35,797 nt of DNA from Longimicrobiaceae bacterium. GTDB taxonomy: Bacteria > Gemmatimonadota > Gemmatimonadetes > Longimicrobiales > Longimicrobiaceae. Positions 6,001 to 31,981 of this stretch are shown piece after piece. The position numbers were made by a program, and so were the translations under genes. Each line of letters opens with the position of its first letter. Position 1 is the stretch's first letter. Below the pieces are notes generated by a model. That model was given only the letters and a program-made list of their open reading frames with translations. It was not told the DNA's origin and made no database searches. The stretch is from NCBI GenBank assembly GCA_035696245.1, contig DASRQW010000173.1, forward strand, positions 1-35,797. The letters are read 5' to 3'.

Positions 6001-9000
6001 GCCGCCACGGCCGCGCTGGCGGAGCTCACGCGCCGCGAGGGCGCCACGCTCTTCATGGCCCTCCTCGCCGCGTTCGACGTGCTGCTCGCGCGGTACGCGG
6101 GCACGCAGGACGTGGTGGTCGGCAGCCCCATCGCCGGCCGCAATCGCGCGGAGATCGAGGGACTGATCGGCTTCTTCGTCAACAACCTCGTCCTGCGCAC
6201 CGACCTTTCCGGTGACCCGTCGTTCCGCGAGCTGGTCGGGCGGGTTCGCGAGACCACGCTGGGCGCGTACGCCCATCAGGACCTGCCGTTCGAGAAGCTG
6301 GTGGAGGAGATCGGCGTGGAGCGCAGCCTCAGCCACTCGCCCGTCTTCCAGGTCATGTTCGCCCTCCAGACCACCGGCGCCGCCCCGGTGGCTCCGCCGA
6401 TGTCGGAGGATGCGGACGAAGCGACGACGTCGGCGGAGTCGGTGGATGCCGCGACGGCGTCGGACGACGCGCCGGCGCCGGGGGGGACGGCGAAGTTCGA
6501 CCTGACGCTGAACCTGACGGAGACGCCCGGCGGTCTCGCCGGCGGCTTCGAATACAGCACGGACCTGTTCGACGCCGCCACCGCCCGCCGGATGGCGCGC
6601 CACTTCGCCGCGCTGGTGGAGGCCGCGGTCGCATCTCCCGACGTGCCCGTCTCGCGCCTGCCCATGCTGGCCGCGGGCGAGCGCGAGCAGGTGCTGGGCG
6701 CGTGGAACGACACGGCGCGCGGCTATGCCACGGACCTGCGCATCCACGACCTGTTCCAGGCGCAGGCCGCGCGCACGCCCGCCGCGACCGCGCTCGTCCA
6801 CGGCGCGCACGCGCTCACGTACGCGCAGCTCAACGCCCGCGCGAACCAGCTCGCACGCCATCTCCAGACCCTCGGCGTGGGCCCGGAATCGCTCGTCGCC
6901 GTGTGCATGGAGCGCACGCCGGAGATGATCGTCGCGCTGCTCGCCGTGCTCAAGGCGGGCGGCGCGTACGTGCCCGTAGATGCGAACTATCCCGCGGACC
7001 GCATCGCCTACATGCTGGAGGATTCCGGCGCCGCCGTGGTCCTCACGCAGGCGTTCGTGGCCCGGCATCTCCCGCCCACCGCCGCGCCCGTCGTGAAGGT
7101 GGATGCGGACTGGCCGGAGATCGCCAAGCTGCCGGAAGGCGACCTTTCGGTGGATGTGAAGCCCGGGAACGCCGCGTACGCCATCTACACGTCGGGCTCC
7201 ACCGGCCGTCCCAAGGGCGTGCAGATCGAGCACCGCAGCACCGTCACACTCCTGCACTGGCTGAAGGAGAATGTGCCGGACGACGAGCGCGCCTCGGTGC
7301 TCGGCTCCACCTCCATCTCGTTCGACGTCTCCATCGCCGAGATCTTCGGCACGCTGTGCTGGGGCGGCAAGCTCGTGCTGGTCGAGAACGCGCTGGCGCT
7401 CTCCGGCCTCCCGCCCGAGCACCGCGTCCGCCTGGCCAGCATGGTCCCCAGCGCCGCCGCCGAGCTGCTGCGCATGGGCGCGATCCCGGCCAGCATCCGC
7501 GCGCTGAACCTGGGCGGAGAGCCGCTGCCCAACGCGCTGGCGCAGGACCTCTACGCCCTGGGCCACGTCGACAAGGTCCTGAATCTCTACGGGCCCACGG
7601 AAGATACGACCTACTCCACGTTCTCCGTCGTGGACCGCGGCGGGCAGAAGGTGTACGTCGGCCGCCCCGTCGCGAACACGCAGGCGTACGTGGTCGATGC
7701 GAACCTCCAGCCCGTGCCCGTCGGCGTCCCCGGCGAGCTGTACCTGGCCGGAAGCGGCCTCGCCCGCGGCTACCTGAACCGTCCCGGGCTGACCGCCGAG
7801 CGCTTCATCCCCAACCCGTTCTCCACCGAGCCGGGCGCACGGATGTACCGCGTCGGCGACCTCGTCAGATATCTCGCTGACGGGACGATCGAGTACCTGG
7901 GCCGCCTGGACCACCAGGTGAAGATCCGCGGCTTCCGCATCGAGCTGGGCGAGGTGGAGGCCGCGCTGGCCGCCCACCCGGCGGTGGAGGACGCCGCCGT
8001 CATCGCACGCGAGGACGTGCCGGGTGACAGGCGCCTCGTCGCGTACGTGGTCGCCGGACCGGGAGCGGTGCTGGAAGTGGCCGAGCTGCGCGGCTACCTG
8101 CGCGGCGCGCTGCCGGACTACATGGTGCCGTCGGCCTTCGTGGGCCTGGCGGCGCTGCCGCTCACGCCCAACGGCAAGGTGGACCGCCGCGCCCTGCCCG
8201 CGCCCGACCACGCGGGCTCCGACGCCACGTACGTCGCCCCCCGCACCCCGGCCGAGGAGAAGATGGCCGGCGTGTGGGCCGACCTGCTGGGCGTGCAGCG
8301 CGTGGGCGTGCAGGACAACTTCTTCGAGCTGGGCGGCCACTCGCTGGTCGCCACCCGCCTCGTGTCCCGCCTGCGCGAGGCGTTCGGCGTGGAGGTGCCG
8401 CTGCGCGTGGTTTTCGAGGCGCCCACCGTCGCCGAGATGACCGCGCACGTCGCCGGGCTCTCCGCCGCGGCGGCCCAGCACCCGGCCGCGCCCAAGCTGG
8501 GCCGCGTCTCCCGCGACGCCCGCCGCCAGACGCTCGGCGCGGGCGAGGAGATGCCGTCCGCCCCCGTGCGTACCGCGCCGGCCGCCGGTCCGTCTCCGCA
8601 GCCGCGCAGCGGGCCGCCGCCGCTGTCGTTCGCGCAGGAGCGGCTCTGGTTCGTGGACCGGCTGAGCGCCGCCGGGGCCGCGTACAACATCCCGCTGATC
8701 CTGCCGTCGCGCGGGCTGGACCCGGAGATCATCCGCCGCTCCGTCGCCGAGCTGGTGGCGCGCCACGAGACGCTGCGCACCCGCTTCGGCACGTTGGACG
8801 GGCGGCCGGTGCAGGTCATCTCCGAGCCAGGCGGGTTCGAGCTTCCGGTGATCGATCTCCGCCACGTGCCCGAAGCGGAGAAGCAGGCCGCCGTGCGCCT
8901 GGCGGTGGCCGAGCAGACGCAGCCCGCGTTCGACCTGGAGCGCGGCCCCGTTTTCCGCGGCGCGCTGATCCTGGCGACGGACACGGACCACGTCCTCGCG

Positions 9001-12000
9001 CTGTGCATGCACCACATCGTCAGCGACGGGTGGTCCATCCGGGTGCTCACGCGCGAGCTGGACATCCTGTACCGCGCGTTCGAGAGCGGCCAGCCCAACC
9101 CGCTTCCGCCGCTTCCGCTGCAGTACGCGGACTTCGCCATCTGGCAGCGCGCCTGGCTCACGGGCGCGGAGCTGGAGCGCCAGCTCGCGTACTGGCGCGA
9201 GCACCTGGCCGGCATCCCAGAGGTGCTGGAGCTGCCGACCGACAGGCCGCGGCCGCCGGTGCAGACCTTCCCCGGCGCCTCGCGCACCGTGCTGCTGCCG
9301 CGCGCCATCAGCGAGCGGCTGGGCGCGCTGGGCCGCGAGGAGCGCGCGACGCTGTTCATGAGCCTGCTCGCCGCGTTCGGCGTGCTGCTGGGCCGCTGGT
9401 CCGGCCAGGACGACGTGGTGATCGGCAGCGCCATCGCCGGCCGCAACCGCGAGGAGATCGAGGGGCTCGTCGGCTTCTTCGTCAACAACCTCGTGCTGCG
9501 CACCGACCTTTCCGGTGACCCCACCTTCCGCGAGCTCCTCCGCCGCTCGCGCGAGGCCACGCTGGGCGCGTACGGACACCAGGACCTGCCGTTCGAGAAG
9601 CTGGTGGAAGAGGTGGGCGCCGAGCGCAGCCTGAGCCACACGCCCGTCTTCCAGGTGCTCTTCAACCTGCTCACGGACGAGACGGGCGCCACCGGCAACT
9701 ACGGCGCCGAGGGCCAGGTCGTCACGCACGAAGGCGGCACCGCCAAGTACGACCTCACGCTGGGCGCGCAGGAGACGGCGCAGGGCATCACCGCCTCGCT
9801 CAACTTCAACACCGACCTCTTCGACGGCGCCACCATCGAGCGGATGCTGGGGCACTTCCAGGCCCTGCTCGCCGCCGCGACCGAGGAGCCGGACCTGCCG
9901 CTCTCGCGCCTTGGCCTCTTCGCCAAGGGCGAGCGCCGGCTGCTGCTGGAGGAGTGGAACGACACCGGGCGCGACTACCCGTCCGGCCGCATCCACGACC
10001 TGCTCGAGGCCCAGGCGCGCCGCACTCCGGACGCCCCCGCGCTCGTCTTCGGCGCGGAGGCGCTCACGTACGCGCAGCTGAACGGGCGCGCGAACCAGCT
10101 CGCCCGCCACCTTCGCACGCTCGGCGTGGGACCGGAGACGCTGGTCGCCGTCTGCATGGAGCGGACGCCGGAGATGGTCGTGGCGATGTACGCCGTGCTC
10201 AAATCGGGCGCAGCGTACGTGCCGGTCGATCCCAACTACCCGGCCGAGCGCATCGCCTACATGCTGGAGGATACCGGCGCGCCCGTCGTCCTCACCCAGG
10301 CGCGCGTGGCGGAACGTCTCCCGGCCACGCAGGCTCGCGTCGTCCGCGTGGACGCCGACTGGCACCGCATCGCCACGGAAGCGGCGGACGACCTGTCGGT
10401 AGATGTGAAGCCGGAGAACGCCGCGTACGCCATCTACACGTCGGGCTCCACGGGCAGGCCGAAGGGCGTCCACATCGAGCACCGCAGCACCGTCACGCTC
10501 CTCCACTGGCTCAAGGAGAACGTGCCGGACGAGGAGCGCGCGTCCGTCCTCGGCTCCACCTCCATCTCGTTCGACGTCTCCATCGCGGAGATCTTCGGCA
10601 CGCTGTCGTGGGGTGGGAAGCTGGTGCTGGTGGAGAACGCGCTGTCGCTCGCCAATCTCCCGGCCGGCCAGGAAGTCCGCCTCGCGAGCATGGTCCCGTC
10701 CGCCGCCGCGGAGCTGCTGCGGATGGGCGGCATCCCATCCACCGTCCGCTCCTTGAACCTGGGCGGCGAGCCGCTGCCGAACGCGCTGGCGCAGGGCCTC
10801 TACGGGCTCGGTACAGTGGAGAAGGTGCTGAACTTCTACGGGCCCACGGAGGATACGACGTACTCGACGTGGTCCGTCGTGGAGAAGGACGGGCAGAAGG
10901 TCTACGTCGGCCGCCCGGTCGCGAACACGCAGGCGTACGTGGTGGATCGGAATCTCCAGCCCGTGCCCGTCGGCGTCCCCGGCGAGCTCTACCTGGCCGG
11001 AAGCGGCCTGGCGCGCGGCTACCTCAACCGTCCGGGGCTGACGGCCGAACGCTTCGTCCCCAACCCGTTCTCCGCCGAGCCGGGTGCGCGGATGTACCGC
11101 GTGGGCGACCTCGTCCGTTATCAGGCGGACGGGACCATCGAGTACCTGGGGCGCCTGGACCACCAGGTGAAGATCCGCGGCTTCCGCATCGAGACGGGCG
11201 AGATCGAGTCCGCACTCGCCGCGCACCCCACGGTAGAAACCGTGGCGGTGATCGCGCGCGAGGACGCGCCGGGCGACAAGCGGCTCGTCGCGTACCTCGT
11301 CCCCGCGGCAGATGCGGAGCTGAGCGCGACGGAGCTGCGGGCGCACCTCAAGGCGCGGCTGCCGGACTACATGGTGCCGTCCGCCTTCGTGCGCCTCACC
11401 GCGCTGCCGCTCACGCCCAACGGCAAGGTGGACCGGCGTGCCCTGCCCGCCCCGCAGGCCGCCGCCGCCACGCACGAGCACGTGCCCCCGCGCGACGACG
11501 TGGAGCGGAAGCTGGTGGAGATCTGGCAGGAGGTGCTGGGCACCAGCCCCATCGGCGTGCGCGACGGGTTCTTCGACCTGGGCGGCCACTCGCTGCTGGC
11601 CGTGCGCCTCATGACGCTCATCAAGGAGAGCTTCGGGCGCGAGATCCCGCTCACCGCGCTCTTCCAGGGCGCCACGGTGGAAGCCCTCGCCGCGCTGCTG
11701 CGCGACGAGGACGACGCAGCGCCCACCGGCCCGCTCGTGACCGTGCAGCCCAAGGGCGACAAGCCGCCCTTCTTCCTCGTCCACGGCGCCGCCGGCACCG
11801 TGCTGCGGTACGCGCCGCTGGGCCGCAGGCTGGCGCCGGACCAGCCCTTCTACGCCCTGCGCGCCGTGGGCCTCGAAGCGGGCGAGGAGCCGCCGCGCAC
11901 GCTGGAGGAGATGGCCGCGGGCTACGTGGCGGCTATCCACCAGGTGCAGCCGCAGGGGCCGTATCGCGTGGGCGGCTGGTCCACCGGCTGCTCCATCGCG

Positions 12001-12591
12001 TACGAGGTCGCCCAGCAGCTCACCGCCGCCAAGGAGAAGGTGGAGGTGCTGGTGCTGCTGGACGGCCAGGCGCCCACCCCCGGCGCCGTGCTCGCCGAGC
12101 CGGACGAGGTCGATCTTCTCGTCTGGCTGGCGGGCGAGCTGGGCCGCCCCATCGGCGGCGACCCGGCGGTGAAGTTCACGGAGGAGCTGCGGGACCTGGA
12201 GGGCGATGCCCGCTACCTGCACGCCCTCGCTTGGGTCAACGCCGAGGGCGCCGTGCTCCCGGAGGGCGACCCGGAGCCGCTGCGGCGCTACCTTGGCGTG
12301 CTGCGCGCCAGCATCCACGCCTCGGGCAACTACCGCCCCAAGCTGTACCGTGGCCGCGTGGTGCTCATGCAGGCCCGCGAGCGCATGGTGCAGGCGCGCG
12401 ACCTGGCCCTGCAGCACAACTACATCGTGAACGAGGACTACCTGGCCGGCTGGCGCAACCTGGTGGCCGGCCGGCTGGACGGCCGCATCGTGGGCGGCGA
12501 CCACTACACCATGCTCGCCGAGCCCGAGGCGCAGCCACTGGCGAACCGCCTGCGCGCCGCGCTCGCGCCCCCCGCGGCACCCAAGCCGTGA
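1..12591 (+). CDS. Multimodular nonribosomal peptide synthetase, 5' end outside window
   Basis: The frame is open from base 1, so the protein starts upstream; 4196 residues are visible. Domains by nucleotide: tail of a condensation (C) domain 1-300; A1 345-1840; carrier T1 with GGHSL serine at 1972; C 2140-3460 with HHIVSDG at 2539; A2 3490-5020; T2 serine 5143; C 5300-6640 with HHIVSDG at 5707; A3 6700-8200; T3 serine 8341; C 8610-9920 with HHIVSDG at 9010; A4 9950-11450; T4 serine 11590; thioesterase 11740-12570 with GWSTG serine 11980, likely Asp 12061 and His 12502. C domains look LCL type and no epimerase is present, so these residues should stay L. Pocket codes extracted by eye: A1 DVQFIAQVVK (proline-like), A2 DALWIGGTFK (valine-like), A3 DVASNGLTYK and A4 DVASNGFTYK (unassigned). 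The terminal thioesterase releases the chain by hydrolysis or cyclisation, making this the last synthetase of its line. Domain calls are secure; substrates are tentative. Confidence 0.97.
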   Translation, partial: EPEPAAEIGGDDTQASTEVQARAAMEETNLSMFDLSLSADEYEGGLFLSLEYRTDLWDADTIMRMAIHYHTLLNKVAEAPDEPLSRISFLHTEERHYAVSRFNATAEDFGPQLPLHAMFAAQTAATPNAEALSFRGETLTYAQLDARANRLARHLRARGVGPETRVGVCVDRSVEMAVAVLAVLKAGGCYVAMDPNYPADRLAYMLADSAAPVLVTVSSVAAHLPSLDADVVRLDADADAIAAESAEAFEPGVQPENLAYVLYTSGSTGRPKGVALPQRALVNMIRWQLARWEGRAPARVLQFASLSFDVSFQEMLSTWCSGGTLVLVDDDTRRDAAALLRYVADQRVERIFLPFAALQHLAEVADETGAGPSTLREVITAGEQLRSTPALVRWAERAGITVENQYGPSESHVVSAHLLEGEPAGWPALPSIGEPISNVQLYVLDEWMQPSPYGVYGELYIGGEALARGYLNRPAMTAEKFVPSPFGPAGARLYRTGDRVRHHRDQLHFLGRIDHQVKVRGFRIELGEIESVLQQQPGVRDAAVVVREDTPGDRRVVAYVSPAAGEELRPDALRAALKERLPDYMVPSAVAVLPDLPLSPNGKVDRKALPAPDRAGEADTFVAPRTDTERDLAAIWGEVLKLDRVGVHDNFFDLGGHSLIATRVVSRIRQAMEREVPVRVLFEAPTVAELAVRLTGEAVADQPQAAPIVPADRSNALPLSFAQERLWFVDRLIPGSTAYNLPLVLPVPGADADVLERVLAEIVRRHEALRTTFASVDGRVSQVVAPAGDFRLAVEDVEGASEDEMHAAISRRVAEEIGQPFDLERGPLFRATLLRAGDAAVLVLAMHHIVSDGWSMNVLTAEINALYAAFAEGRPSPLPELAVQYADYAVWQRERMTGDVLAAELAYWKAQLAGAPEVLELPADRPRPPVETYRGAVRYFRFPARLANALRDVARRENATLFMALLAAWDALLSRYAGTDDVVVGSPIAGRNRGETEPLVGFFVNNLVLRTDLSGEPSFRALVGRVRETTLGAYAHQDLPFEKLVEELNVGRSLSHSPLFQVLFALQNTAAAGDAEPSGAMEGDDTAVSPPVERPSKFDLSVDFNEAGDELVGSIEYSTELFGHDTAERMVRHFRLLAEALVAEPDAPVTAHTLLSEDERRQVVTEWNDTATEYPRDSTIHALLAEQAAATPDAVALVAGDERLTYAELDGRANRLSRHLRSLGVGEGSRVALGVPRSAELVVASAAVLKAGGACVPLDTAYPADRLAFMLADSGASALIVSAGVPGPLASFSGTVVSLAADAGRIASHESTGISSSGVTAESLAYVLYTSGSTGQPKGAAIPHRAVVRLIRNTDFAEFGPQHVHALLAAAAFDATLLETWGALLNGARLAVFPPHAPSLEELGAFIRAQGITTLWLTAGLFHQMVDERLEDLGGLRQLIAGGDVISVAHARRVIEAHPHVRLIDGYGPTENTTFTTCRTVRPEDTERARIPVGTPIANSTVYILDERMRPVPVGVPGELYAGGDGVALGYLDRPELTAEKFVADPFSSSGDARLYRTGDRARWLPGGIVEFMGRIDQQVKIRGFRIEPGEVEAALKAQPGVRDAVVAVRGEGGAKRLVAYVRPASADAAALRDALRGSLPDYMVPAAVVPMDAFPLTPNGKVDRRALPEPELSGDEFVAPRTPTEEVMAGIWAEILGVERVSAAAGFFDLGGHSLLATRVISRIRQLFGVELPLRALFEAPTVAELSRRVDESRADTGAPPIVPVPRDKPLPLSFAQERLWFVDRLVPGSSAYNVPVVLPVPGADAATLERVLGEIVRRHEALRTTFRVVDGTEVQEIAPAGGFALAVVDLTGVSGDEKHARASAAVGEESARPFDLEAGPLFRATLVRLSDAEQVLVLVMHHIVSDGWSMTVLTDEINALYAAFAEGRPSPLPELPVQYADFAVWQREWLSGEVLDTQLGYWKRQLAGAPPVLELPADRPRPPVQSFRGATQRVALSRAATAALAELTRREGATLFMALLAAFDVLLARYAGTQDVVVGSPIAGRNRAEIEGLIGFFVNNLVLRTDLSGDPSFRELVGRVRETTLGAYAHQDLPFEKLVEEIGVERSLSHSPVFQVMFALQTTGAAPVAPPMSEDADEATTSAESVDAATASDDAPAPGGTAKFDLTLNLTETPGGLAGGFEYSTDLFDAATARRMARHFAALVEAAVASPDVPVSRLPMLAAGEREQVLGAWNDTARGYATDLRIHDLFQAQAARTPAATALVHGAHALTYAQLNARANQLARHLQTLGVGPESLVAVCMERTPEMIVALLAVLKAGGAYVPVDANYPADRIAYMLEDSGAAVVLTQAFVARHLPPTAAPVVKVDADWPEIAKLPEGDLSVDVKPGNAAYAIYTSGSTGRPKGVQIEHRSTVTLLHWLKENVPDDERASVLGSTSISFDVSIAEIFGTLCWGGKLVLVENALALSGLPPEHRVRLASMVPSAAAELLRMGAIPASIRALNLGGEPLPNALAQDLYALGHVDKVLNLYGPTEDTTYSTFSVVDRGGQKVYVGRPVANTQAYVVDANLQPVPVGVPGELYLAGSGLARGYLNRPGLTAERFIPNPFSTEPGARMYRVGDLVRYLADGTIEYLGRLDHQVKIRGFRIELGEVEAALAAHPAVEDAAVIAREDVPGDRRLVAYVVAGPGAVLEVAELRGYLRGALPDYMVPSAFVGLAALPLTPNGKVDRRALPAPDHAGSDATYVAPRTPAEEKMAGVWADLLGVQRVGVQDNFFELGGHSLVATRLVSRLREAFGVEVPLRVVFEAPTVAEMTAHVAGLSAAAAQHPAAPKLGRVSRDARRQTLGAGEEMPSAPVRTAPAAGPSPQPRSGPPPLSFAQERLWFVDRLSAAGAAYNIPLILPSRGLDPEIIRRSVAELVARHETLRTRFGTLDGRPVQVISEPGGFELPVIDLRHVPEAEKQAAVRLAVAEQTQPAFDLERGPVFRGALILATDTDHVLALCMHHIVSDGWSIRVLTRELDILYRAFESGQPNPLPPLPLQYADFAIWQRAWLTGAELERQLAYWREHLAGIPEVLELPTDRPRPPVQTFPGASRTVLLPRAISERLGALGREERATLFMSLLAAFGVLLGRWSGQDDVVIGSAIAGRNREEIEGLVGFFVNNLVLRTDLSGDPTFRELLRRSREATLGAYGHQDLPFEKLVEEVGAERSLSHTPVFQVLFNLLTDETGATGNYGAEGQVVTHEGGTAKYDLTLGAQETAQGITASLNFNTDLFDGATIERMLGHFQALLAAATEEPDLPLSRLGLFAKGERRLLLEEWNDTGRDYPSGRIHDLLEAQARRTPDAPALVFGAEALTYAQLNGRANQLARHLRTLGVGPETLVAVCMERTPEMVVAMYAVLKSGAAYVPVDPNYPAERIAYMLEDTGAPVVLTQARVAERLPATQARVVRVDADWHRIATEAADDLSVDVKPENAAYAIYTSGSTGRPKGVHIEHRSTVTLLHWLKENVPDEERASVLGSTSISFDVSIAEIFGTLSWGGKLVLVENALSLANLPAGQEVRLASMVPSAAAELLRMGGIPSTVRSLNLGGEPLPNALAQGLYGLGTVEKVLNFYGPTEDTTYSTWSVVEKDGQKVYVGRPVANTQAYVVDRNLQPVPVGVPGELYLAGSGLARGYLNRPGLTAERFVPNPFSAEPGARMYRVGDLVRYQADGTIEYLGRLDHQVKIRGFRIETGEIESALAAHPTVETVAVIAREDAPGDKRLVAYLVPAADAELSATELRAHLKARLPDYMVPSAFVRLTALPLTPNGKVDRRALPAPQAAAATHEHVPPRDDVERKLVEIWQEVLGTSPIGVRDGFFDLGGHSLLAVRLMTLIKESFGREIPLTALFQGATVEALAALLRDEDDAAPTGPLVTVQPKGDKPPFFLVHGAAGTVLRYAPLGRRLAPDQPFYALRAVGLEAGEEPPRTLEEMAAGYVAAIHQVQPQGPYRVGGWSTGCSIAYEVAQQLTAAKEKVEVLVLLDGQAPTPGAVLAEPDEVDLLVWLAGELGRPIGGDPAVKFTEELRDLEGDARYLHALAWVNAEGAVLPEGDPEPLRRYLGVLRASIHASGNYRPKLYRGRVVLMQARERMVQARDLALQHNYIVNEDYLAGWRNLVAGRLDGRIVGGDHYTMLAEPEAQPLANRLRAALAPPAAPKP

Positions 12592-22785: not shown

Positions 22786-25113
22786 CTAATGCCGTGGGGT
22801 TGTTTCCGGAAGCGGACGCTTTTCGTCCACCTCCGGCGGTGCGGTAGTTTGCACATCCCGCGCCGCCGTGTAGCGTATGTCCAACTTTCCACCACGCCTG
22901 TCCACCGTCGCGTAGCCGCCGTGCTCCAGCGCGCCGAAAAGGATCTCCTCTCCCATAGGCCGCAGCACCTCTTCCTGCACCAGGCGGGCAAGGGGCCGTG
23001 CACCGTTCTTCGGGTCCAGCCCGCCTTGGGCCAGCCACGCGCGGGCGGCCGGGGTCACCTCCAGCTCCACTCCCTTGGCGGCCAAACGGACGGCGAGCGC
23101 CGCTACCGTCCGGTCCACGATGCGCTCCATCACGGCCAAGGTGAGTGGTGCGAAGGGGATGCGCGCGTCCAGCCGGTTGCGGAACTCGGGCGAGAAGGTC
23201 TTCTCGTACGCCCGCTCGTCCTCGCCGCCCGCTTCTCCGCCTCCAAAACCCGCGCGGCGGCGCGCCATCTCCTCGGCGCCCACGTTGCTGGTCATCACCA
23301 GGACGACGTTGCGGAAGTCGGCCTGCTTGCCGTTGGCGTCCGTGAGACGGCCGTAGTCCATCACCTGCAGCAGGACGTTGAAGACGTCGGGGTGCGCCTT
23401 CTCGATCTCGTCCAGCAGCAGCACGGCGTGGGGGGTGCGCGCCACCGCGTCGGTGAGCAGGCCCGCCTGCTCGAAGCCCACGTAGCCCGGCGGCGCCCCG
23501 ATGAGGCGCGAGACGGTGTGGCTCTCCATGTACTCGCTCATGTCGAAGCGGATGAGCGTGATGCCCATCGCCTCGGCCAGGCTGCGCGCGACCTCGGTCT
23601 TGCCTACGCCGGTGGGGCCGGTGAAGAGGAACGAGCCCACCGGCTTCTCCGGGTCGCGCAGCCCGGCGCGGGAGAGCTTGATCGCCGAGACCACCCGCTC
23701 CACCGCGGCGTCCTGCCCGAAGACGCGCCGCTTCAGCTCCGCCTCCAGCCCGCGGAGCCTTTCACGGTCACTTCCCGCCACCGTCTTTGGCGGGATCCGT
23801 GCCATGGTCGCGAGGATGCGCTCGACCGTCTGCTCGTCCACCTCCGGCGGCTCGGCGGCGCCCACTGAGCGCAGGCGGACTTCCGCGCCGGCCTCGTCCA
23901 GCAGGTCGATCGCCTTGTCGGGGAGCCGTTTCTCGTGCAGATGGCGGGCGGCGAGCTCGGCGGCCGCGCGGATGGCGCCTTCGGTGTAGCGTACGCCGTG
24001 GAACGCCTCGTACCGGGGCCGCAGCCCGTCCAGAATGCGCACGGTGTCCGGAATCGAGGCTTCGGGCACCTCCACCTTCTGGAAGCGGCGGGCGAGCGCG
24101 CGGTCCTTCTCGAAGTGCGACCGGAGCTCCTCCCACGTGGTCGATCCGATGCAGCGCAAGCCCGCAGCGAGCGCCGGCTTGAGGAGATTGGAGGCGTCCA
24201 CGCTGCCGCCGCTGGTGGTGCCGGCGCCCACGAGGGTGTGGATCTCGTCCACGAAGAGGATGGCGTGGGGGTGGGCGGCGAGCTCGGCCAGCACGGCCTT
24301 CAGGCGCTCCTCGAAGTCGCCGCGGTACCGCGTGCCCGCCAGCAGCGCGCCAAGATCGAGCGCGAAGATCTCCGCATCCCGCAACGGTTCGGGCACTTCG
24401 CCCGCGTGGATCCGGAGGGCCAGCCCTTCCACCAGCGCGGTCTTGCCCACACCCGGGTCGCCCACGAAGAGCGGGTTGTTCTTGCGGCGCCGCGCCAGCA
24501 CGTGCACGGCCCGGGCGATCTCCGCCTCACGGCCGATCAGCGGGTCCACGCGCCCCGCGGCGGCCATCTCGTTGAGCGACACGGCGAAACGGGCCAGCGC
24601 GCTGTCTCCGTCCGCCACGTCCGGCTGGTCGTCGTCCGCGTGCACGCGCGGGGGGCGAGGAGCGTCGGCGGCGGCGTGGGCGGTGCCGTGGGAGATGTAG
24701 CGCAGCACGGCCAGGCGGCTCATCCCCTGCTCCTCCATGAAGTGCACCGCGAACGCGTCGGCCTCGCCCCACAGAGACGCCAGGACGTGGGCGCCCGTCA
24801 CCTCGTCCTTCCCGGAGCGGAGCACGTGCAGCGCGGCCTCGTGCACCACCCGGCGGAAGGCCAGCGTCGGCGAGGCTTCATCGACCGCGTGCGATGCGGG
24901 CGGCACCTCGTCGCGGAGGAAGCGGTCCAAGCGCGCCCGCAGAGCCTCGGGGTCGCCGCCGGCGCCGCGCACGGCCTGGAGCGCGGCGTCGTCGTGAAGA
25001 AGAGCGAAGAGCAGGTGCTCCAGCCCGGCCAGACGGTGGCCGCGGCGTGCGGCTTCCATGACGGCCAGCCGCAGGGTGATCTCCAGGTCCGGGCGCACTG
25101 CGGGGGTGGACAT
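22786..25113 (-). CDS. clpA: ATP-dependent Clp protease ATP-binding subunit ClpA
   Basis: 775 residues, close to typical ClpA. Order: Clp-N repeat domain (residues 1-145), first AAA+ module with GDPGVGKT and ILFVDEIHTL, second AAA+ module with GPTGVGKT and VLLLDEIEKAHPDVFN, then the Clp C-terminal small domain. It unfolds substrates and threads them into ClpP. The immediately upstream clpS supports ClpA rather than ClpC or ClpB; the long coiled-coil middle domain of ClpB is absent. The loop where ClpP-docking IGL/VGF tripeptides occur reads RRAGFGGG, so the first loop residue is Ala. ATG 25113 is four bases after the clpS stop, so the two are co-translated. No clpP is in the window. Confidence 0.97.
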   Translation of the reverse strand: MSTPAVRPDLEITLRLAVMEAARRGHRLAGLEHLLFALLHDDAALQAVRGAGGDPEALRARLDRFLRDEVPPASHAVDEASPTLAFRRVVHEAALHVLRSGKDEVTGAHVLASLWGEADAFAVHFMEEQGMSRLAVLRYISHGTAHAAADAPRPPRVHADDDQPDVADGDSALARFAVSLNEMAAAGRVDPLIGREAEIARAVHVLARRRKNNPLFVGDPGVGKTALVEGLALRIHAGEVPEPLRDAEIFALDLGALLAGTRYRGDFEERLKAVLAELAAHPHAILFVDEIHTLVGAGTTSGGSVDASNLLKPALAAGLRCIGSTTWEELRSHFEKDRALARRFQKVEVPEASIPDTVRILDGLRPRYEAFHGVRYTEGAIRAAAELAARHLHEKRLPDKAIDLLDEAGAEVRLRSVGAAEPPEVDEQTVERILATMARIPPKTVAGSDRERLRGLEAELKRRVFGQDAAVERVVSAIKLSRAGLRDPEKPVGSFLFTGPTGVGKTEVARSLAEAMGITLIRFDMSEYMESHTVSRLIGAPPGYVGFEQAGLLTDAVARTPHAVLLLDEIEKAHPDVFNVLLQVMDYGRLTDANGKQADFRNVVLVMTSNVGAEEMARRRAGFGGGEAGGEDERAYEKTFSPEFRNRLDARIPFAPLTLAVMERIVDRTVAALAVRLAAKGVELEVTPAARAWLAQGGLDPKNGARPLARLVQEEVLRPMGEEILFGALEHGGYATVDRRGGKLDIRYTAARDVQTTAPPEVDEKRPLPETTPRH

Positions 25114-25117
25114 GCGG

Positions 25118-25435
25118 CTATTCGGGCTCGGTCGTGACCAGCAGGGGGTAGCCCTGCGCCTGCGCGGCCTCGGTGGCCTCGGCGGCCAGGGTCTCGGCCA
25201 CGTCGCGCGTGTAGGTGCCCGCCACGCCGGTGCCTGCGTGGTGCACCTCCAGCATCACGCGCATGGCCTCGGTCTCGGTCTTCCCGAAGACGGTGACCAG
25301 CACGTCGACCACGAACTCCATGGTCGTGTAGTCGTCGTTGTGCAGCACCACGTGGTGGCGGCGCGGGGTGCGGGCGGATGGCCGCTCGGCCACGTCCACG
25401 CCCTCCTGGCGCTCGGTCTCGCGCTCGCGGCTCAC
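25118..25435 (-). CDS. clpS: ClpS, N-degron adaptor of ClpAP
   Basis: 105 residues. The core has HHVVLHNDDYTTMEFVVDVL, the acidic pocket residues (NDD) that bind N-terminal degron residues, then the helix with HHAGTGVAGTYTRDVAETL. The His of HHAG corresponds to the conserved pocket His. It presents proteins with destabilising N-termini to ClpA, whose gene follows four bases downstream. The start is GTG at 25435; the first 24 residues are a charged tail like the flexible extension seen in the family. Confidence 0.96.
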   Translation of the reverse strand: MSRERETERQEGVDVAERPSARTPRRHHVVLHNDDYTTMEFVVDVLVTVFGKTETEAMRVMLEVHHAGTGVAGTYTRDVAETLAAEATEAAQAQGYPLLVTTEPE

Positions 25436-26077: not shown

Positions 26078-26914
26078 ATGCCCACCGGCGCACCCGCCGT
26101 GACGATCCCCGAAGACCGCACCCAGGAGCACTCGCGAATCGCGCACGAGCTGCGGGTGCAGCGGTTCCTGCAGCCCGACGACGTGACGTGCGGGCCCACC
26201 TGCCTTCGCAAGGTCTACGACTTCTACGGGCTGGAGCTGGAGCTGGGCGAGGTGATGGGCGAGATCGAGCGCAACGAGGACGGCGGCACGCTGGCCGTCT
26301 ACCTCGGCATCGCGGCGTGCAAGCGCGGCTTCCAGTCGCGCATCTACTCGTACGACCTGCGCATCTTCGACCCCACGTGGTTCGCCCTGCCGCGCGAGGC
26401 GCTCACCGAGAAGGTGCGCGCCCGCTTGCCGTTCCTGCGCACCGAGAAGGCGGGAGATGCGGCGCGGGCGTACCTGCGGTTCCTGGAGATGGGCGGCCAG
26501 ATGGCCTTCGACGAGCTGACGCCGGGGCTGCTCAAGTCGATCCTGGACCGCGACCACCCCATCCTGGCCGGACTCTCCGCCACGTACCTGTACCGCATGA
26601 TGCGCGAGCGGCACGACGAGCGCGACGACACGCTGGTGGACGACGACGTGCGCGGCAGCCCCACGGGGCACTTCGTGGTGATCACCGGCTACGAGCACTG
26701 GGGCCGCGCGTTCTCGCTGCGCGACCCGTCGGAGCACGTGCCGGTGGCCGAGCACGGGCGAGTGGTGGTGGATGCGCAGCGGCTCATCAACGCCATCCTG
26801 CTGGGCGACCTGACGTACGACGCGGTGCTGCTGGAGGTGTGGCGCGCTGACGGCTACGGCGGGCCGGAGGTGACGCGCGGCGCCTTCGCGGCCGGTGGCG
26901 AGGGGGCCGCGTGA
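26078..26914 (+). CDS. C39-like papain-fold protein of an amidoligase locus
   Basis: 278 residues. The papain-like triad pattern is present: Cys38 in QPDDVTCGPTCLRKVYDFYG, His198 in TGHFVVITGYEHW, and Asp216 in SLRDPSEH. This matches peptidase C39-like proteins found beside RimK-like ATP-grasp ligases and GCS2-like ligases in comparative surveys of amidoligase gene neighbourhoods. It could cleave a peptide, transfer an acyl group or trim the ligase product; the substrate is unknown. There is no signal peptide or transporter domain, so it is not a bacteriocin exporter. ATG 26078 has AGGAG a few bases upstream. Its stop overlaps the next start (GTGA), indicating translational coupling. Confidence 0.85.
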   Translation: MPTGAPAVTIPEDRTQEHSRIAHELRVQRFLQPDDVTCGPTCLRKVYDFYGLELELGEVMGEIERNEDGGTLAVYLGIAACKRGFQSRIYSYDLRIFDPTWFALPREALTEKVRARLPFLRTEKAGDAARAYLRFLEMGGQMAFDELTPGLLKSILDRDHPILAGLSATYLYRMMRERHDERDDTLVDDDVRGSPTGHFVVITGYEHWGRAFSLRDPSEHVPVAEHGRVVVDAQRLINAILLGDLTYDAVLLEVWRADGYGGPEVTRGAFAAGGEGAA

Positions 26915-29850
26915 GCCGACGCCGCGTGCTGGTGGTGGTGTCGGACCCGGCGGACGCGAGCGGCCTGCCGGGCGAGAGCGTCGTCCCGGCCGACCAGTAT
27001 CTGGAAGGCGGCGCCGAGCTGGCAGACGGGCGCTGCGTGGTGGTGAACCTGTGCCGCTCGTTCCGCTACGGCAGCAAGGGCTACTACGTCTCCCTGCTGG
27101 CCGACGCGCGCGGCCAGCAGGTGATCCCGTCGGTCGAGACGAGCGAGGGGCTGGCGGAACCGTACGGGCGCTTCCGCGCGCTCCAGGAGGCGGGGGTCGC
27201 CACCATCGACGCGGCGGAGATGAACGTGCGCCGCCGCGCCCTGGGCTTCCCGGCCGACGCGGAGGCGGAACCAGTGCTGGAGGAAGATGCGGAGCCGCCG
27301 CGCGCCTTCCCGCCCCCGCTGGCCCGCGACCCCGCCGCGCCCCAGGGTTGCCGGCCCGCACGCGAGGGCGAGTACGTGGAGACGCTGGTGTACATGGGCA
27401 CGTGCGACGACGCGCGCTTCCGCCTGCCCGCGCTGGCCGTCTTCCGCGAGTGGCCCGCCCCCGTCCTGCGCCTCCAGCTGCTGCACGAGGGCGACGAGTG
27501 GAAGGTGACGCAGGTCGCGGCCGTCCCTCCGCACCACCTGGACGCGGACGGGCGCGCCCGGCTTGCCCACGCGCTCACAAACGAGCAGCGCGTGCTTCGC
27601 CGCGGCCGCGCCGCGCCGCGCGAGACGGTGCGGGCCTCTATCGCCGTCCTGGTCGACCCCGCGGACCCGTTCAGCCCCTCGAGCCCCGAGACGATCGACC
27701 GGCTGGCGCGGGTGGCGGCGCGGCGGAACGTGCACGTGCACCGCATCTCCGCGGCCGACCTGCGCAAGCTGCCGGAATACGACGCGCTGTTCATCCGCGT
27801 GCTCACCGGCGTGAGCCTGCCCGCCTTCCAGTTCGCGCTGCGGGCCGAGGCGCTGGACATGCCCGTGGTGGACGACAGCCAGTCCATCATCCGCTGCGGC
27901 AACAAGGTGTTCCTGGAAGAGCTGCTGCGCCGCGGCGGCATCCCCACGCCGCGGACCCGCATCGCCACCGCGGCGACGCCGTGGGAGCAGGTGGCGGAGC
28001 TGGGCCTCCCGCTCGTCATCAAGCTCCCCGACGGCTCGTTCTCGTCGGCCGTGCACAAGGTGGCGTCGCGCCAGGATTACGAGGCGCGGGCGCGGGAGAT
28101 GTTCCGCCGCTCGCCGCTCATCATCGCCCAGGAGTGGCTGCCCACGGAGTTCGACTGGCGGGTGACCGTTCTGGGCGGGAAGCTGCTCTTCGCCGCACGC
28201 TACTACATGGCGCGCGGCCACTGGCAGATCCGCAGCGAGGTGCAGGGCACGGAGCGCTACGGCCGCGTGGTCGCCGTGCCGCGCGAGAGCGCGCCCCGCG
28301 ACGTGGTGGAGGTGGCGCTTCGGGCGGCCGGGCTCATCGGCGGCGGGCTCTACGGGGTCGATTTGAAGGAGACGCCCGACGGGCCGGTGGTGATCGAGAT
28401 CAACGACAACCCCAACCTGGACGTGGGCTACGAGGACGGGGCCGACGGGAACGCCATCTACGAGGACCTGGTGGAGCACTTCGTGAGCCGCATCGAGGAG
28501 GGCGCCCCGGCGCGCAACGGCGCGGGGGAGCCGCCCACGTCCGCGGCCGAGACGCTGGCGAGCATCCGCCGCCCCATCCGCGTCCGCTCGTCGTCATCCA
28601 CCGACCGCGCCTACAAGCCGTTCGAGGTGGCGGGGCTGGAGATGGAGTATCCGACCGTGGACCGCGACCTCAACGTGGTCTCGCTGGTCGAGCCGGCATT
28701 CCGGATACTCGCCGGGCGAGGGACGAGCGACGTGGACCTGGGCGCGGTGGGCTTCAGCAACGAGATCGCCGACCACGTGTTCGAGGTGAAGACGCTCCAG
28801 CCGGTCAAATCGTTGCGCGACGCGGAGGAGGCGATGGCCGAGGGCATCGGCCGCTTCAGCGCCGTCCTCCGCGACGAGTTCGACGCCCGGCTGATGCCTA
28901 CGGGCATGCATCCCTGGTTCGATCCGAAGAAAGGGCGGCTGTGGACCCGCTCCGGGCTGCGCGTCTACACCACCTACGCGCGGCTCTTCGATCTGCGCAC
29001 GCACGGGTGGATGAACGTGCACGCCACCCACCTGAACCTCCCGTTCGGCAGCGAGCGGGAGACGGTGGCGATGCACACGGCTGCAGCGCTGCTGATCCCC
29101 TATCTCCCCGCCCTCGCCGCCAGCTCGCCCATGTTCGATGGCGAGCTGCAGCCCTCGGTGGATGGCCGGCTGGCGTTCATCCTGGAGCACCAGGCGCGCA
29201 TCCCCGAGAGCTGCGGCGACATCGTGCCGGAGTACGTGGAGAGCTTCGGAGACTACCGGCGCCGCATCTTCGCGCCCATGTACGCGGCGCTGGACCGGCT
29301 GCCGGACACGGGCGCCATCCGCCACGAGTTCTTCAACACGCGCGGGGCCATCCTCCGCTTCGCTCGGCAGGCGATGGAGATCCGCGTGCTGGACACGCAG
29401 GAGTGCGTGAAGATGGACGTGGCCGTGGGCGTCTTCGTCCGCTCCGCGCTGAAGCACCTCACGCAGCGCGTGCTGGACGGGAAGATCGCCATTCCCCCGC
29501 ACGAAGTGCTGGTCGAAGACTTCCGCTCGTCCATCCGCGACGGCAGCGCCGCGTCGGTCCTCGCGCCCCACGTCGTCGGAGCCAGCGCGGGCGGGCAGGT
29601 GCCCGTGCGAGAGGTGCTGCACGCGCTGCTCGCGGGCGCGCGCAAGTCCGTCCGCCGCGACGAGGCGTCGTACCTGGACCTCGTCGCGCGCATGATCGAC
29701 ACGGGCACGCTCTCGGAGCGCATCCGCGCCGCGCTCCATCCCTTCGCCGACGCCGAGGACGAGGAGTTCACCGAAGCCGCCCGGCGCATCTACATCGAGC
29801 TGATGGACTGCCTGGAAGCCAACGAGCCCTGGGCCCGGCGGGGATTGTAG
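26911..29850 (+). CDS. Fused RimK-like ATP-grasp ligase and GCS2-like ligase
   Basis: 979 residues. Residues 1-220 match an RLAN-type N-terminal region (VNLCRSFRYGSKGYYVSLLADARG). Residues 250-530 form a RimK-like ATP-grasp domain: CGNKVFLEELLRRGGIPTPRT, VIKLPDGSFSSAVHKV, FDWRVTVLGGKLLFAARYY and the metal-binding EINDNPNLDVGYEDG. After a linker, residues 566-979 resemble glutamate-cysteine-ligase type 2 proteins (FEVAGLEMEYPTVD, NEIADHVFEVKTLQP, MEIRVLDTQECVKMD). Both halves are ATP-dependent carboxylate-amine ligase folds, so the protein could form two successive amide bonds on a small molecule or peptide. Such genes are generally separate neighbours; here they are one polypeptide. GTG 26911 overlaps the upstream stop by four bases. 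The substrate is unknown; glutathione or ovothiol-like thiols cannot be assumed. Confidence 0.88.
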   Translation: MSRRRVLVVVSDPADASGLPGESVVPADQYLEGGAELADGRCVVVNLCRSFRYGSKGYYVSLLADARGQQVIPSVETSEGLAEPYGRFRALQEAGVATIDAAEMNVRRRALGFPADAEAEPVLEEDAEPPRAFPPPLARDPAAPQGCRPAREGEYVETLVYMGTCDDARFRLPALAVFREWPAPVLRLQLLHEGDEWKVTQVAAVPPHHLDADGRARLAHALTNEQRVLRRGRAAPRETVRASIAVLVDPADPFSPSSPETIDRLARVAARRNVHVHRISAADLRKLPEYDALFIRVLTGVSLPAFQFALRAEALDMPVVDDSQSIIRCGNKVFLEELLRRGGIPTPRTRIATAATPWEQVAELGLPLVIKLPDGSFSSAVHKVASRQDYEARAREMFRRSPLIIAQEWLPTEFDWRVTVLGGKLLFAARYYMARGHWQIRSEVQGTERYGRVVAVPRESAPRDVVEVALRAAGLIGGGLYGVDLKETPDGPVVIEINDNPNLDVGYEDGADGNAIYEDLVEHFVSRIEEGAPARNGAGEPPTSAAETLASIRRPIRVRSSSSTDRAYKPFEVAGLEMEYPTVDRDLNVVSLVEPAFRILAGRGTSDVDLGAVGFSNEIADHVFEVKTLQPVKSLRDAEEAMAEGIGRFSAVLRDEFDARLMPTGMHPWFDPKKGRLWTRSGLRVYTTYARLFDLRTHGWMNVHATHLNLPFGSERETVAMHTAAALLIPYLPALAASSPMFDGELQPSVDGRLAFILEHQARIPESCGDIVPEYVESFGDYRRRIFAPMYAALDRLPDTGAIRHEFFNTRGAILRFARQAMEIRVLDTQECVKMDVAVGVFVRSALKHLTQRVLDGKIAIPPHEVLVEDFRSSIRDGSAASVLAPHVVGASAGGQVPVREVLHALLAGARKSVRRDEASYLDLVARMIDTGTLSERIRAALHPFADAEDEEFTEAARRIYIELMDCLEANEPWARRGL

Positions 29851-29887
29851 ATCGCCGCTCCTGCACAACGGCTGAGCGTGAGGAACG

Positions 29888-29907
29888 CCCGGCTATGAAC
29901 TGCGGTC
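29888..29907 (-). repeat. 20-bp dispersed repeat, inverted copy 2
   Basis: Reverse complement of 16029-16048 with 20 of 20 bases identical. It lies between the ligase-fusion stop and the bidirectional terminator. Confidence 0.85.
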
Positions 29908-29966
29908 ATCCGGCGACGAGGTGTCGGATTCACCCGCTTACGCGAATCGATCCAACACCCCGTAGA

Positions 29967-30008
29967 CACGAAAGCCCTCCCGACGCGTTGTCGGGGAGGG
30001 CTTTCGTG
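29967..30008. terminator. Bidirectional terminator between convergent genes
   Basis: CACGAAAGCCCTCCCGAC pairs with GTCGGGGAGGGCTTTCGTG (18 bp with one bulged G, loop GCGTT). The A-rich left arm and T-containing right arm suit termination from both sides. It separates the + strand ligase fusion (stop 29850) from the - strand cyanophycinase-like gene (stop 30024). Confidence 0.9.
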
Positions 30009-30023
30009 GTCTGCATCCGCGCA

Positions 30024-30878
30024 TCAAGTCGCCGCGGGCGCTTTCTCGATCTCATCGCCGTTGGGGAGGATGGGGCGCTTGTTCTTGAGGTTGAAGCCGT
30101 AGCCTTCGGGAAGGACGTGGATGGTGGAGTCCGTGATGGCCAGCGTGGCGTCGTCGCCCACATTGGGCGCGTTGGTGTGCGTGACGCGGCCGTTAAAGAC
30201 CATCACGGCGCCCGCGCCGATCACGGTGAACCGGTCGCCCGGCACGCAGTCGACGGCCGTGTTCTCGTCGATTCCGATGCCCAGCACTTGCGGGTTCTGC
30301 GCGAAGATGGTGAGCAGGCGGCTCACGCGGCCGCGCTGGTTGAAGTGCGTGTCCACCACCGTGTCGCGCCAGTAGCCCAGCCCCGGCGCCAGGTCCACGT
30401 CTCCCCGCCGCACCGTCCCCTCGTTCTTCCCCCCGATGAGCATGACGCTGCTCATGGCCGCCGCCCCCGCGCTGGTGCCTGCCACCACCAGCCCGTCGCC
30501 GTACAGCCGCTGGCGGATGTGCTCGCACATCGCGCTGCCGGCCATGAGAGCGGTGAGCCGGAGCTGGTCGCCGCCGGTGAAGAACACCGCCGTGGCACGC
30601 TCCACCGCGTCCACGATCTCCTGGGTGTTGGCCTGGTTGCGGTCGGTGATGGGGGCCCCGATCACCTCCGCCACGCCGATCTTCTCGAACAGCGCGCCGT
30701 AGGTGTCCACCTTCTCCTCGGGGCTCTCGGAAGGAGCAGAGCAGATGATGATGCGGGCGTTCTTGCCGCCGGCGATCTTAACCAGGTACGGCAGCACGTG
30801 CATGTCGTTCTCGTCGGGATCCTCCGCCCCCCCGATCACCAGCAGCCGCCCCGCCCGCCCCGTCTTCTTGTCGCCCAT
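30024..30878 (-). CDS. Cyanophycinase-like serine peptidase (family S51)
   Basis: 284 residues, close to typical cyanophycinases. Motifs: RLLVIGGAEDP at the start, IIICSAPSESP, AVFFTGGDQLRLTALMAGS, nucleophile Ser136 in VAGTSAGAAAMSS, and GLGYWRDTVVDTHFNQRGRVSRLL, whose His-containing segment is conserved in the family. Cyanophycinase cuts the branched polymer of aspartate and arginine into beta-Asp-Arg; relatives cut other beta-aspartyl or isopeptide-like bonds. No cyanophycin synthetase is in the window, so the true substrate may instead relate to the neighbouring amidoligase locus. I chose ATG 30878 because GGAGA lies just upstream; ATG 30899 would add seven residues but has no ribosome site. 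It is cytoplasmic, with no signal peptide. Confidence 0.93.
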   Translation of the reverse strand: MGDKKTGRAGRLLVIGGAEDPDENDMHVLPYLVKIAGGKNARIIICSAPSESPEEKVDTYGALFEKIGVAEVIGAPITDRNQANTQEIVDAVERATAVFFTGGDQLRLTALMAGSAMCEHIRQRLYGDGLVVAGTSAGAAAMSSVMLIGGKNEGTVRRGDVDLAPGLGYWRDTVVDTHFNQRGRVSRLLTIFAQNPQVLGIGIDENTAVDCVPGDRFTVIGAGAVMVFNGRVTHTNAPNVGDDATLAITDSTIHVLPEGYGFNLKNKRPILPNGDEIEKAPAAT

Positions 30879-30978
30879 CTCTTCTCCGTTGGCTCGCATT
30901 GAGTCGTTTTCCCGCAGTCCAGGAGGCAGGGACGCCGCCGCCGGGAGCTCCGGCCAGGGCTTGTGCGTCCCCCGCGGT

Positions 30979-31884
30979 TCAGCCGACAGGGCCGGCGAAC
31001 GGGTGCGCGGGCAGCCCGCGGGCTCCCGTGCGCAGGCGGAACAGGTCGCCCGCGTTCACGTGGCGCTCCAGCTCGTCCTGGCCCATGTCCACCGACGCGG
31101 TGGTCACGTACAGGTCCCGCAGCCCCGCGCCGCCGAACGCACAGCTCGTGGGAATGGGCACGGGTATGGAGATGCGCTCCCGCTCGCGCCCGTCCGGCCC
31201 GAAGCGGATCACGCAGCCTCCCTGCCACTGCGCCGACCACACGCAGCCTTCCTCGTCCACCGCCATCCCGTCGGGAAACGCGTCGCCGTCGTTCAGGTCC
31301 GCGAAGACCCGCCGGTTCGCGATCTCCCCGCGATCCATGTCGAAGTCGTAGGCGTAGATGATCTTCCGGGGCGAGTCCGCCAGGTAGAGCGTGCGGCCCT
31401 CGGGGCTCCACGCCGTCCCGTTGCAGACGCCGAATCCGCGTTCCACCGTCCGCACGCTCCCATCCGAATCGACGCGGAAGAGGCTCGCTCCGCCCTCCTC
31501 GTCAGGCGAGGTGGAGCCTACCCACAGGCGCCCCGCCGCGTCGCACTTGCCGTCGTTGAGCCGCTTCCGGCCTCCACCCGCGTCCAAGTCCGCGAACGGC
31601 TCCAGCGTTCCGGCCGCCGGGTCGAGCAGTGCCAGGCGGCTGCGCAGCGCCACGAGGACGCGCTCGCCCCGCGCCGGGATCACGCAGGCCGCAGTCTCGC
31701 TCACCTCCCAGTGGCGGTCCTCACCCGTCTCCGGGGTGAAGCGGTGGACCCGCTGGTTCAGCAGGTCCACCCACCACAGCACACCGTTCTCCGCGTCCCA
31801 CGCGGGCCCCTCGCCCAGCCGGGCCCGCGCCTGGAGCACGTCCTCCACCTCCGCCCCGTCCCCCATCCCCGTCTTCTCCGTCAC
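30979..31884 (-). CDS. SMP-30/gluconolactonase (regucalcin-like) family protein
   Basis: 301 residues, the family's normal length. A six-bladed beta-propeller is indicated by recurring motifs: RLGEGPAWDAENGVLWWVDL, RLNDGKCDAAGRLWVGSTS, GVCNGTAWSPEGRTLYLADS and DAFPDGMAVDEEGCVWSAQW. Metal-site residues are present as Glu25 (LGEGPAW), Asn in CNGTAW and Asp in PDGMAVD. Members are divalent-metal lactonases, often on sugar lactones; the specific substrate is not evident. I chose GTG 31884 because GGGAGGA lies about nine bases upstream; GTG 31926 or ATG 31866 are alternatives. A small ORF lies 97 bases upstream on the same strand. Confidence 0.93.
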   Translation of the reverse strand: MTEKTGMGDGAEVEDVLQARARLGEGPAWDAENGVLWWVDLLNQRVHRFTPETGEDRHWEVSETAACVIPARGERVLVALRSRLALLDPAAGTLEPFADLDAGGGRKRLNDGKCDAAGRLWVGSTSPDEEGGASLFRVDSDGSVRTVERGFGVCNGTAWSPEGRTLYLADSPRKIIYAYDFDMDRGEIANRRVFADLNDGDAFPDGMAVDEEGCVWSAQWQGGCVIRFGPDGRERERISIPVPIPTSCAFGGAGLRDLYVTTASVDMGQDELERHVNAGDLFRLRTGARGLPAHPFAGPVG

Positions 31885-31981
31885 GCCGTCGTCCTCCCAT
31901 CCTCCCCGCCGCCCGACCCGCTCCACTCGCTGCCTCGCGCGTGGAGCCTATCGTTCCGCCGTTGCCGCACCGCCGGCACGA

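Follow-up and report, generated by a model that had tools for sequence, protein, structure and literature searches.

Iyer et al. reportedly predicted in 2009 (Mol BioSyst), by comparative genomics, amidoligase neighbourhoods built around RLAN-RimK proteins with a papain-like partner and GCS2. These reported neighbourhoods and the locus described here have in common the RLAN-ATP-grasp protein, the papain-like partner and a GCS2 nearby, whereas the joining of ATP-grasp and GCS2 in a single polypeptide is a feature of our locus. The bifunctional glutathione synthetase GshF also carries a pair of ATP-dependent amide ligases, an ATP-grasp among them, in one chain. Our fusion is similar to GshF in this respect, but it has the opposite domain order, a GCS2 instead of a GCS1 domain, a RimK-like ATP-grasp, and an additional RLAN domain and C39-like partner. 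In open-access papers we found no experimental characterisation of the RLAN-ATP-grasp family, and nothing on function for RLAN, DUF3335 or FGase/RimK combinations. Judged from these papers, the additions made here to the existing prediction are a fused clade spanning several phyla, an FGase companion and an alternation between GNAT and GCS2.

The stretch of DNA analysed (the window; 35,797 nucleotides) is contig C173 of a Gemmatimonadota genome of 5.6 Mb in 561 contigs. The features considered are the following.

26078..26914, + strand: C39-like papain-fold cysteine enzyme, 278 aa (Pfam Peptidase_C39_2)
26911..29850, + strand: RLAN/RimK-ATP-grasp/GCS2 fusion, 979 aa (Pfam, AlphaFold2, Foldseek)
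26911..26914, + strand: GTGA stop/start overlap, translational coupling (sequence; NTGA junction in the fused clade)
29962..30014, strand unassigned: strong hairpin, probable bidirectional terminator (folding energy)
30024..30878, - strand: S51 peptidase, cyanophycinase paralogue; a neighbour, probably not a core part (Pfam, TIGR02069)
30979..31926, - strand: SMP-30/gluconolactonase-like gene, conserved partner of the S51 gene (Pfam; pairing across genomes)

The C39-like, fusion and S51 frames are open throughout over these intervals, and the family assignments made for them in the original prediction are supported by Pfam and TIGR02069. The stop codon of the C39-like gene and the start codon of the ligase gene share the tetranucleotide GTGA, which had been read as translational coupling. 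All ten Gemmatimonadota relatives with the fusion that were inspected keep an NTGA overlap here, and hence the coupling is real and not due to chance.

Two ligase folds had been proposed for the 979-aa protein, and both are recovered. Pfam identifies RLAN (3e-27; residues 28-220), RimK (2.6e-7; an ATP-grasp of the RimK/LysX/ArgX type, residues ~283-505) and GCS2 (3.9e-19; residues ~570-850, followed by C-terminal helices). The AlphaFold2 model has a pLDDT of 90.3 and a pTM of 0.61, the latter making the relative placement of the domains unsure. In Foldseek comparisons the ATP-grasp half matches ArgX, LysX and RimK (TM by target up to 0.83 for LysX/ArgX) and the GCS2 half matches the YbdK family (up to 0.84), while the RLAN domain has no match of its own among the matches listed; its conserved motifs are Asn-x-Cys and Gly-Tyr-Tyr-x-Ser-Leu-Leu-Ala. 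D484, E496 and N498 of the ATP-grasp half align with D248, E260 and N262 of RimK, which we take to be Mg ligands, and are conserved in 44 sequences. The GCS2 half retains, in 40 sequences, the acidic motif GxExE (E577, E579) together with N617, E618, E625, K627, R811, E823 and R825, and H667 and H698 are kept as well. A dead ligase half, named in the original prediction as evidence against it, is therefore not indicated, and by these alignments both halves retain their catalytic residues. LysX/ArgX and RimK are thus the closest folds to the ATP-grasp half and share its aligned Mg ligands. However, no LysW or other acceptor protein was found at the locus, the ATP-grasp of the window is fused to RLAN and GCS2, and it falls below every NCBIfam cut-off (rimK_fam, 74.7 against 143.4 bits; LysX, 86.2 against 275.6).

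The 278-aa protein encoded upstream is assigned to Peptidase_C39_2 (E = 3.5e-7). Its residues Gln32, Cys38, His198 and Asp216, corresponding to an oxyanion Gln and a Cys-His-Asp set, are invariant in an alignment of 40 homologues. The AlphaFold2 model (pLDDT 87.7) is best matched in Foldseek by the pseudomurein endoisopeptidase PeiR, the C39 domains of PCAT1/ComA and the phytochelatin synthase Alr0975, all of them moderate matches with a TM by query of ~0.4.

The distribution of such loci was surveyed in 249 genomes of the phylum and then in GTDB, where the RLAN-ATP-grasp family is found at more than 580 candidate loci in hundreds of bacterial genomes; the best 80 of these candidates were kept. 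Two kinds of locus were found among those surveyed. Type A (45 loci in many phyla among the 249 phylum genomes and the best 80 of the >580 GTDB loci) has the order stand-alone C39-like, RLAN-ATP-grasp, GCS2, often with 4-nt overlaps, and mostly consists of three overlapping genes (31 split operons). The C39-like, RLAN-ATP-grasp and GCS2 genes are hence the core of a conserved operon. With an RLAN domain fused to a RimK-type ATP-grasp bearing the Mg ligands, a GCS2 with the conserved acidic motif and an adjacent, coupled C39-like protein with its catalytic residues, the window locus is the fused form of this widespread type A amidoligase operon.

ATP-grasp and GCS2 share one open frame in 14 sequences, the window's included, and these form a single clade (support 99/97; recovered in all 200 bootstrap trees) that adjoins two split Gemmatimonadota operons in the tree. 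Its members come from the window's family and from a second family of that order (one genome), with one Planctomycetota and two Myxococcota genomes besides. As the clade spans several families and phyla, the fusion has been passed on, by descent or by transfer, as a functioning unit, and a sequencing artefact can be dismissed. It argues for a joint action of the ATP-grasp and GCS2 steps, and it offers a single-gene assay target by which an old prediction becomes directly testable.

Type B loci, found for instance in Marinobacter, Thiocapsa and Labrys, have a homologous RLAN-ATP-grasp and a C39-like partner as in the window, but a GNAT acyltransferase is attached to the C39-like protein (a GNAT-DUF3335 fusion, the DUF3335 half of which is also C39-like) in place of GCS2. 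The presence of GNAT-DUF3335 where GCS2 is missing suggests an exchange of modules. Examples of the GNAT-DUF3335 fusion are found at L106:6675-7829 (-) and L039:6407-7711 (+).

An all-against-all comparison of the ORFs around the loci revealed a family of ~240 aa encoded directly 3' of GCS2, which Pfam assigns to FGase (N-formylglutamate amidohydrolase). FGase enzymes act on small N-acyl amino acids. The gene directly follows GCS2 in 21 of the 31 split operons (L044:11436-12176, L080:10704-11420, L136:10612-11358 and others), the remaining 10 being without it in part due to contig ends, and it lies divergently upstream in the two fused loci of Myxococcota. Overall it occurs at 23 of 45 type A loci against none of the 55 GCS2-less loci, type B included, where GCS2-less means that no GCS2 lies within the stretch examined and some loci end at contig ends. 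FGase is therefore a frequent but not universal feature of type A, hence not a defining one, and the window does not have it. A whole-genome search found no FGase in nine of ten fused-clade Gemmatimonadota genomes searched, including that of the window, and the exception (G250) carries its copy elsewhere in the genome. FGase, and not S51, is accordingly the conserved companion of the operon, although most of the Gemmatimonadota clade to which the window belongs does without it; the original prediction missed this partner because the window's clade lacks it. It is possible that S51 replaces FGase in the window's family. Together with the alternation of GNAT and GCS2, the FGase link points to acidic amino acids that are N-acylated or gamma-linked.

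Operon conservation, the single fusion clade, the catalytic residues, the folds and the FGase linkage are directly supported; the reactions, their order and the substrates we infer as follows. By analogy with characterised relatives, we give about even chances to a bifunctional amidoligase that makes a small compound of the isopeptide or gamma-glutamyl type, with the papain-fold partner cleaving or transferring the product. The ATP-grasp half would convert a carboxylate into an acyl phosphate and couple this to the amino group of an amino acid, in the way of RimK, LysX and ArgX, and the GCS2 half would form a second amide by the chemistry of glutamate-cysteine ligases, a link that is most likely of the gamma-glutamyl type. 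Both amide-forming steps would thereby be placed in one polypeptide, as in GshF with the domain order reversed. The coupled papain-fold enzyme may then act on an amide or isopeptide bond in the product, by hydrolysis or transpeptidation, like phytochelatin synthase or PeiR, but its cleavage could also come before ligation rather than after it. In most lineages an FGase-like hydrolase would act next, stripping an acidic residue of its acyl or amide cap. A small diffusible compound is the most likely product; a macromolecular acceptor may also be used, by analogy with the RimK/LysX/ArgX group, which modifies proteins too.

A broader view, which we put forward tentatively, is that the operon is a modular platform for a previously undescribed class of metabolites or polymers, where a fixed core of papain-fold enzyme and RLAN-ATP-grasp would be combined with exchangeable third enzymes, either GNAT or GCS2, and with hydrolases, which would be FGase or, in the window's family, S51; the fusion would be its streamlined form.

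The ATP-grasp half might instead add amino acids to the C-terminus or a side chain of a protein in the manner of RimK, with the C39-like enzyme removing them. The closest folds of this half, RimK and LysX/ArgX, do have proteins as acceptors, and a papain-fold partner would suit the role of deconjugase. Characterised GCS2 enzymes, however, use free amino acids, and the FGase substrates named above are equally small. Moreover, no conserved acceptor protein was found to travel with the operon and, beyond one close group, no small ORF is conserved around it. Lacking an acceptor protein or a precursor peptide that travels with the operon, both protein tagging and the maturation of a ribosomal peptide become less likely, and we regard the former as rather unlikely.

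The original prediction joined the ligase and two hydrolases, the C39-like and the S51 proteins, into one system; the module of two ligases and C39-like enzyme is supported, while the membership of S51 is not. The S51 protein scores well in its family (Peptidase_S51, 2e-19; TIGR02069 cyanophycinase, 241 bits where 126.6 is the cut-off) with the catalytic Ser/His/Glu intact and the serine in GTSAG, and it is, to judge from these matches, an intact cyanophycinase paralogue. As a third enzyme it would degrade a cyanophycin-like polymer produced by the fused ligase. In favour of this, orthologues with 65-76% identity are present in eight of ten fused-ligase family genomes (the window's, G224, G032, G249, G251, G253, G255 and G256) against none of four without the ligase (p = 0.015, a value that ignores kinship), and the gene is linked to the ligase in three genomes, that of the window, G224 (at 1.3 kb) and G256 (locus L071; 2.2 kb). 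However, it is unlinked in G032, G249 and G253, G250 and G252 yielded no orthologue, and none of 36 loci outside the family has it, at least 2.5 kb of downstream sequence being available for 29 of these; G251 and G255 were left out of the linkage verdict because their contigs end. Linkage in the survey, a check named in the original prediction, thus holds for C39-like, ATP-grasp and GCS2 (the 45 type A loci), but for S51 is confined to three genomes of one family.

The S51 gene is also convergent to the ligase across a gap of 173 nt, and this gap contains a hairpin (-41 kcal/mol, z -7.3) that a simple T-tract scan does not call as a terminator but that is probably a bidirectional terminator between the convergent genes. 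Although its product is of the cyanophycinase family, no CphA lies at the locus and the gene is not linked to cphA; pieces of cphA and another cphB are found on contig C3 of the same genome, which therefore has cyanophycin genes of its own. The SMP-30 gene is a better partner, as it adjoins S51 in four genomes (pairs seen in L071, L177 and L180), including G253 where the ligase lies elsewhere, and the pairing (window 30024-31926, -) hints at a function of their own. On the linkage survey, and with the hairpin in between, we reject S51 as a core partner, and its part in degrading a polymer from this ligase seems improbable, even if a looser functional tie to the fused ligase may exist. The orthologue in G251 (L179:1060-1866, -) is without the catalytic serine codon (GT-AGAA), by natural loss or assembly error. 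A change of specificity at the position of CphB Gln173 was considered in the S51 alignment, which leaves out rows L054, L055 and L067, and was uninformative: Thr stands there in the window copy and equally in the cphB of the genome itself.

A divergent thiol pathway of the glutathione or ergothioneine type is comparably improbable. GCS2 and ATP-grasp are the glutathione enzyme pair and the C39-like model matches phytochelatin synthase, but the GCS2 of the window is divergent (72 bits against ~180 for the canonical paralogues elsewhere in the same genome) and matches no NCBIfam equivalog, which led us to reject glutathione and EgtA assignments, and the ATP-grasp is RimK/LysX-like rather than GshB-like. 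C39 family peptidases cleave double-glycine leaders, but we know of no role for GCS2 or FGase in RiPPs. Graspetide-like maturation, where a precursor peptide would be cyclised by the ATP-grasp and lose its leader to the C39-like enzyme, is thus highly improbable: the C39 peptidase-transporter is the commonest family near graspetide ATP-grasp loci (PMC8939145), but our C39-like protein stands alone without an ABC-transporter domain (Pfam), and no precursor-like small ORF is conserved at the loci beyond one close group.

A role in defence was dropped, as PADLOC gave no match. The clpA-clpS pair divergent from the operon (window 22786-25435, -) holds the same place in G032, G224, G250 and G253; as a functional partner it was rejected and taken as synteny, being seen in five family members only and in none outside the family. 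Four of the type A loci (L036, L038, L044 and L094; L094:5641-7116) have a sodium:solute symporter gene, possibly for substrate uptake. Further upstream, the window (55-12591, +) encodes a non-ribosomal peptide synthetase of 4178 aa that has four copies each of the condensation, adenylation and carrier domains and ends in a thioesterase; 3' of it come genes for a 3-hydroxyacyl-CoA dehydrogenase, an acyl-CoA dehydrogenase and a free-standing thioesterase, and together they make up a predicted natural-product cluster.
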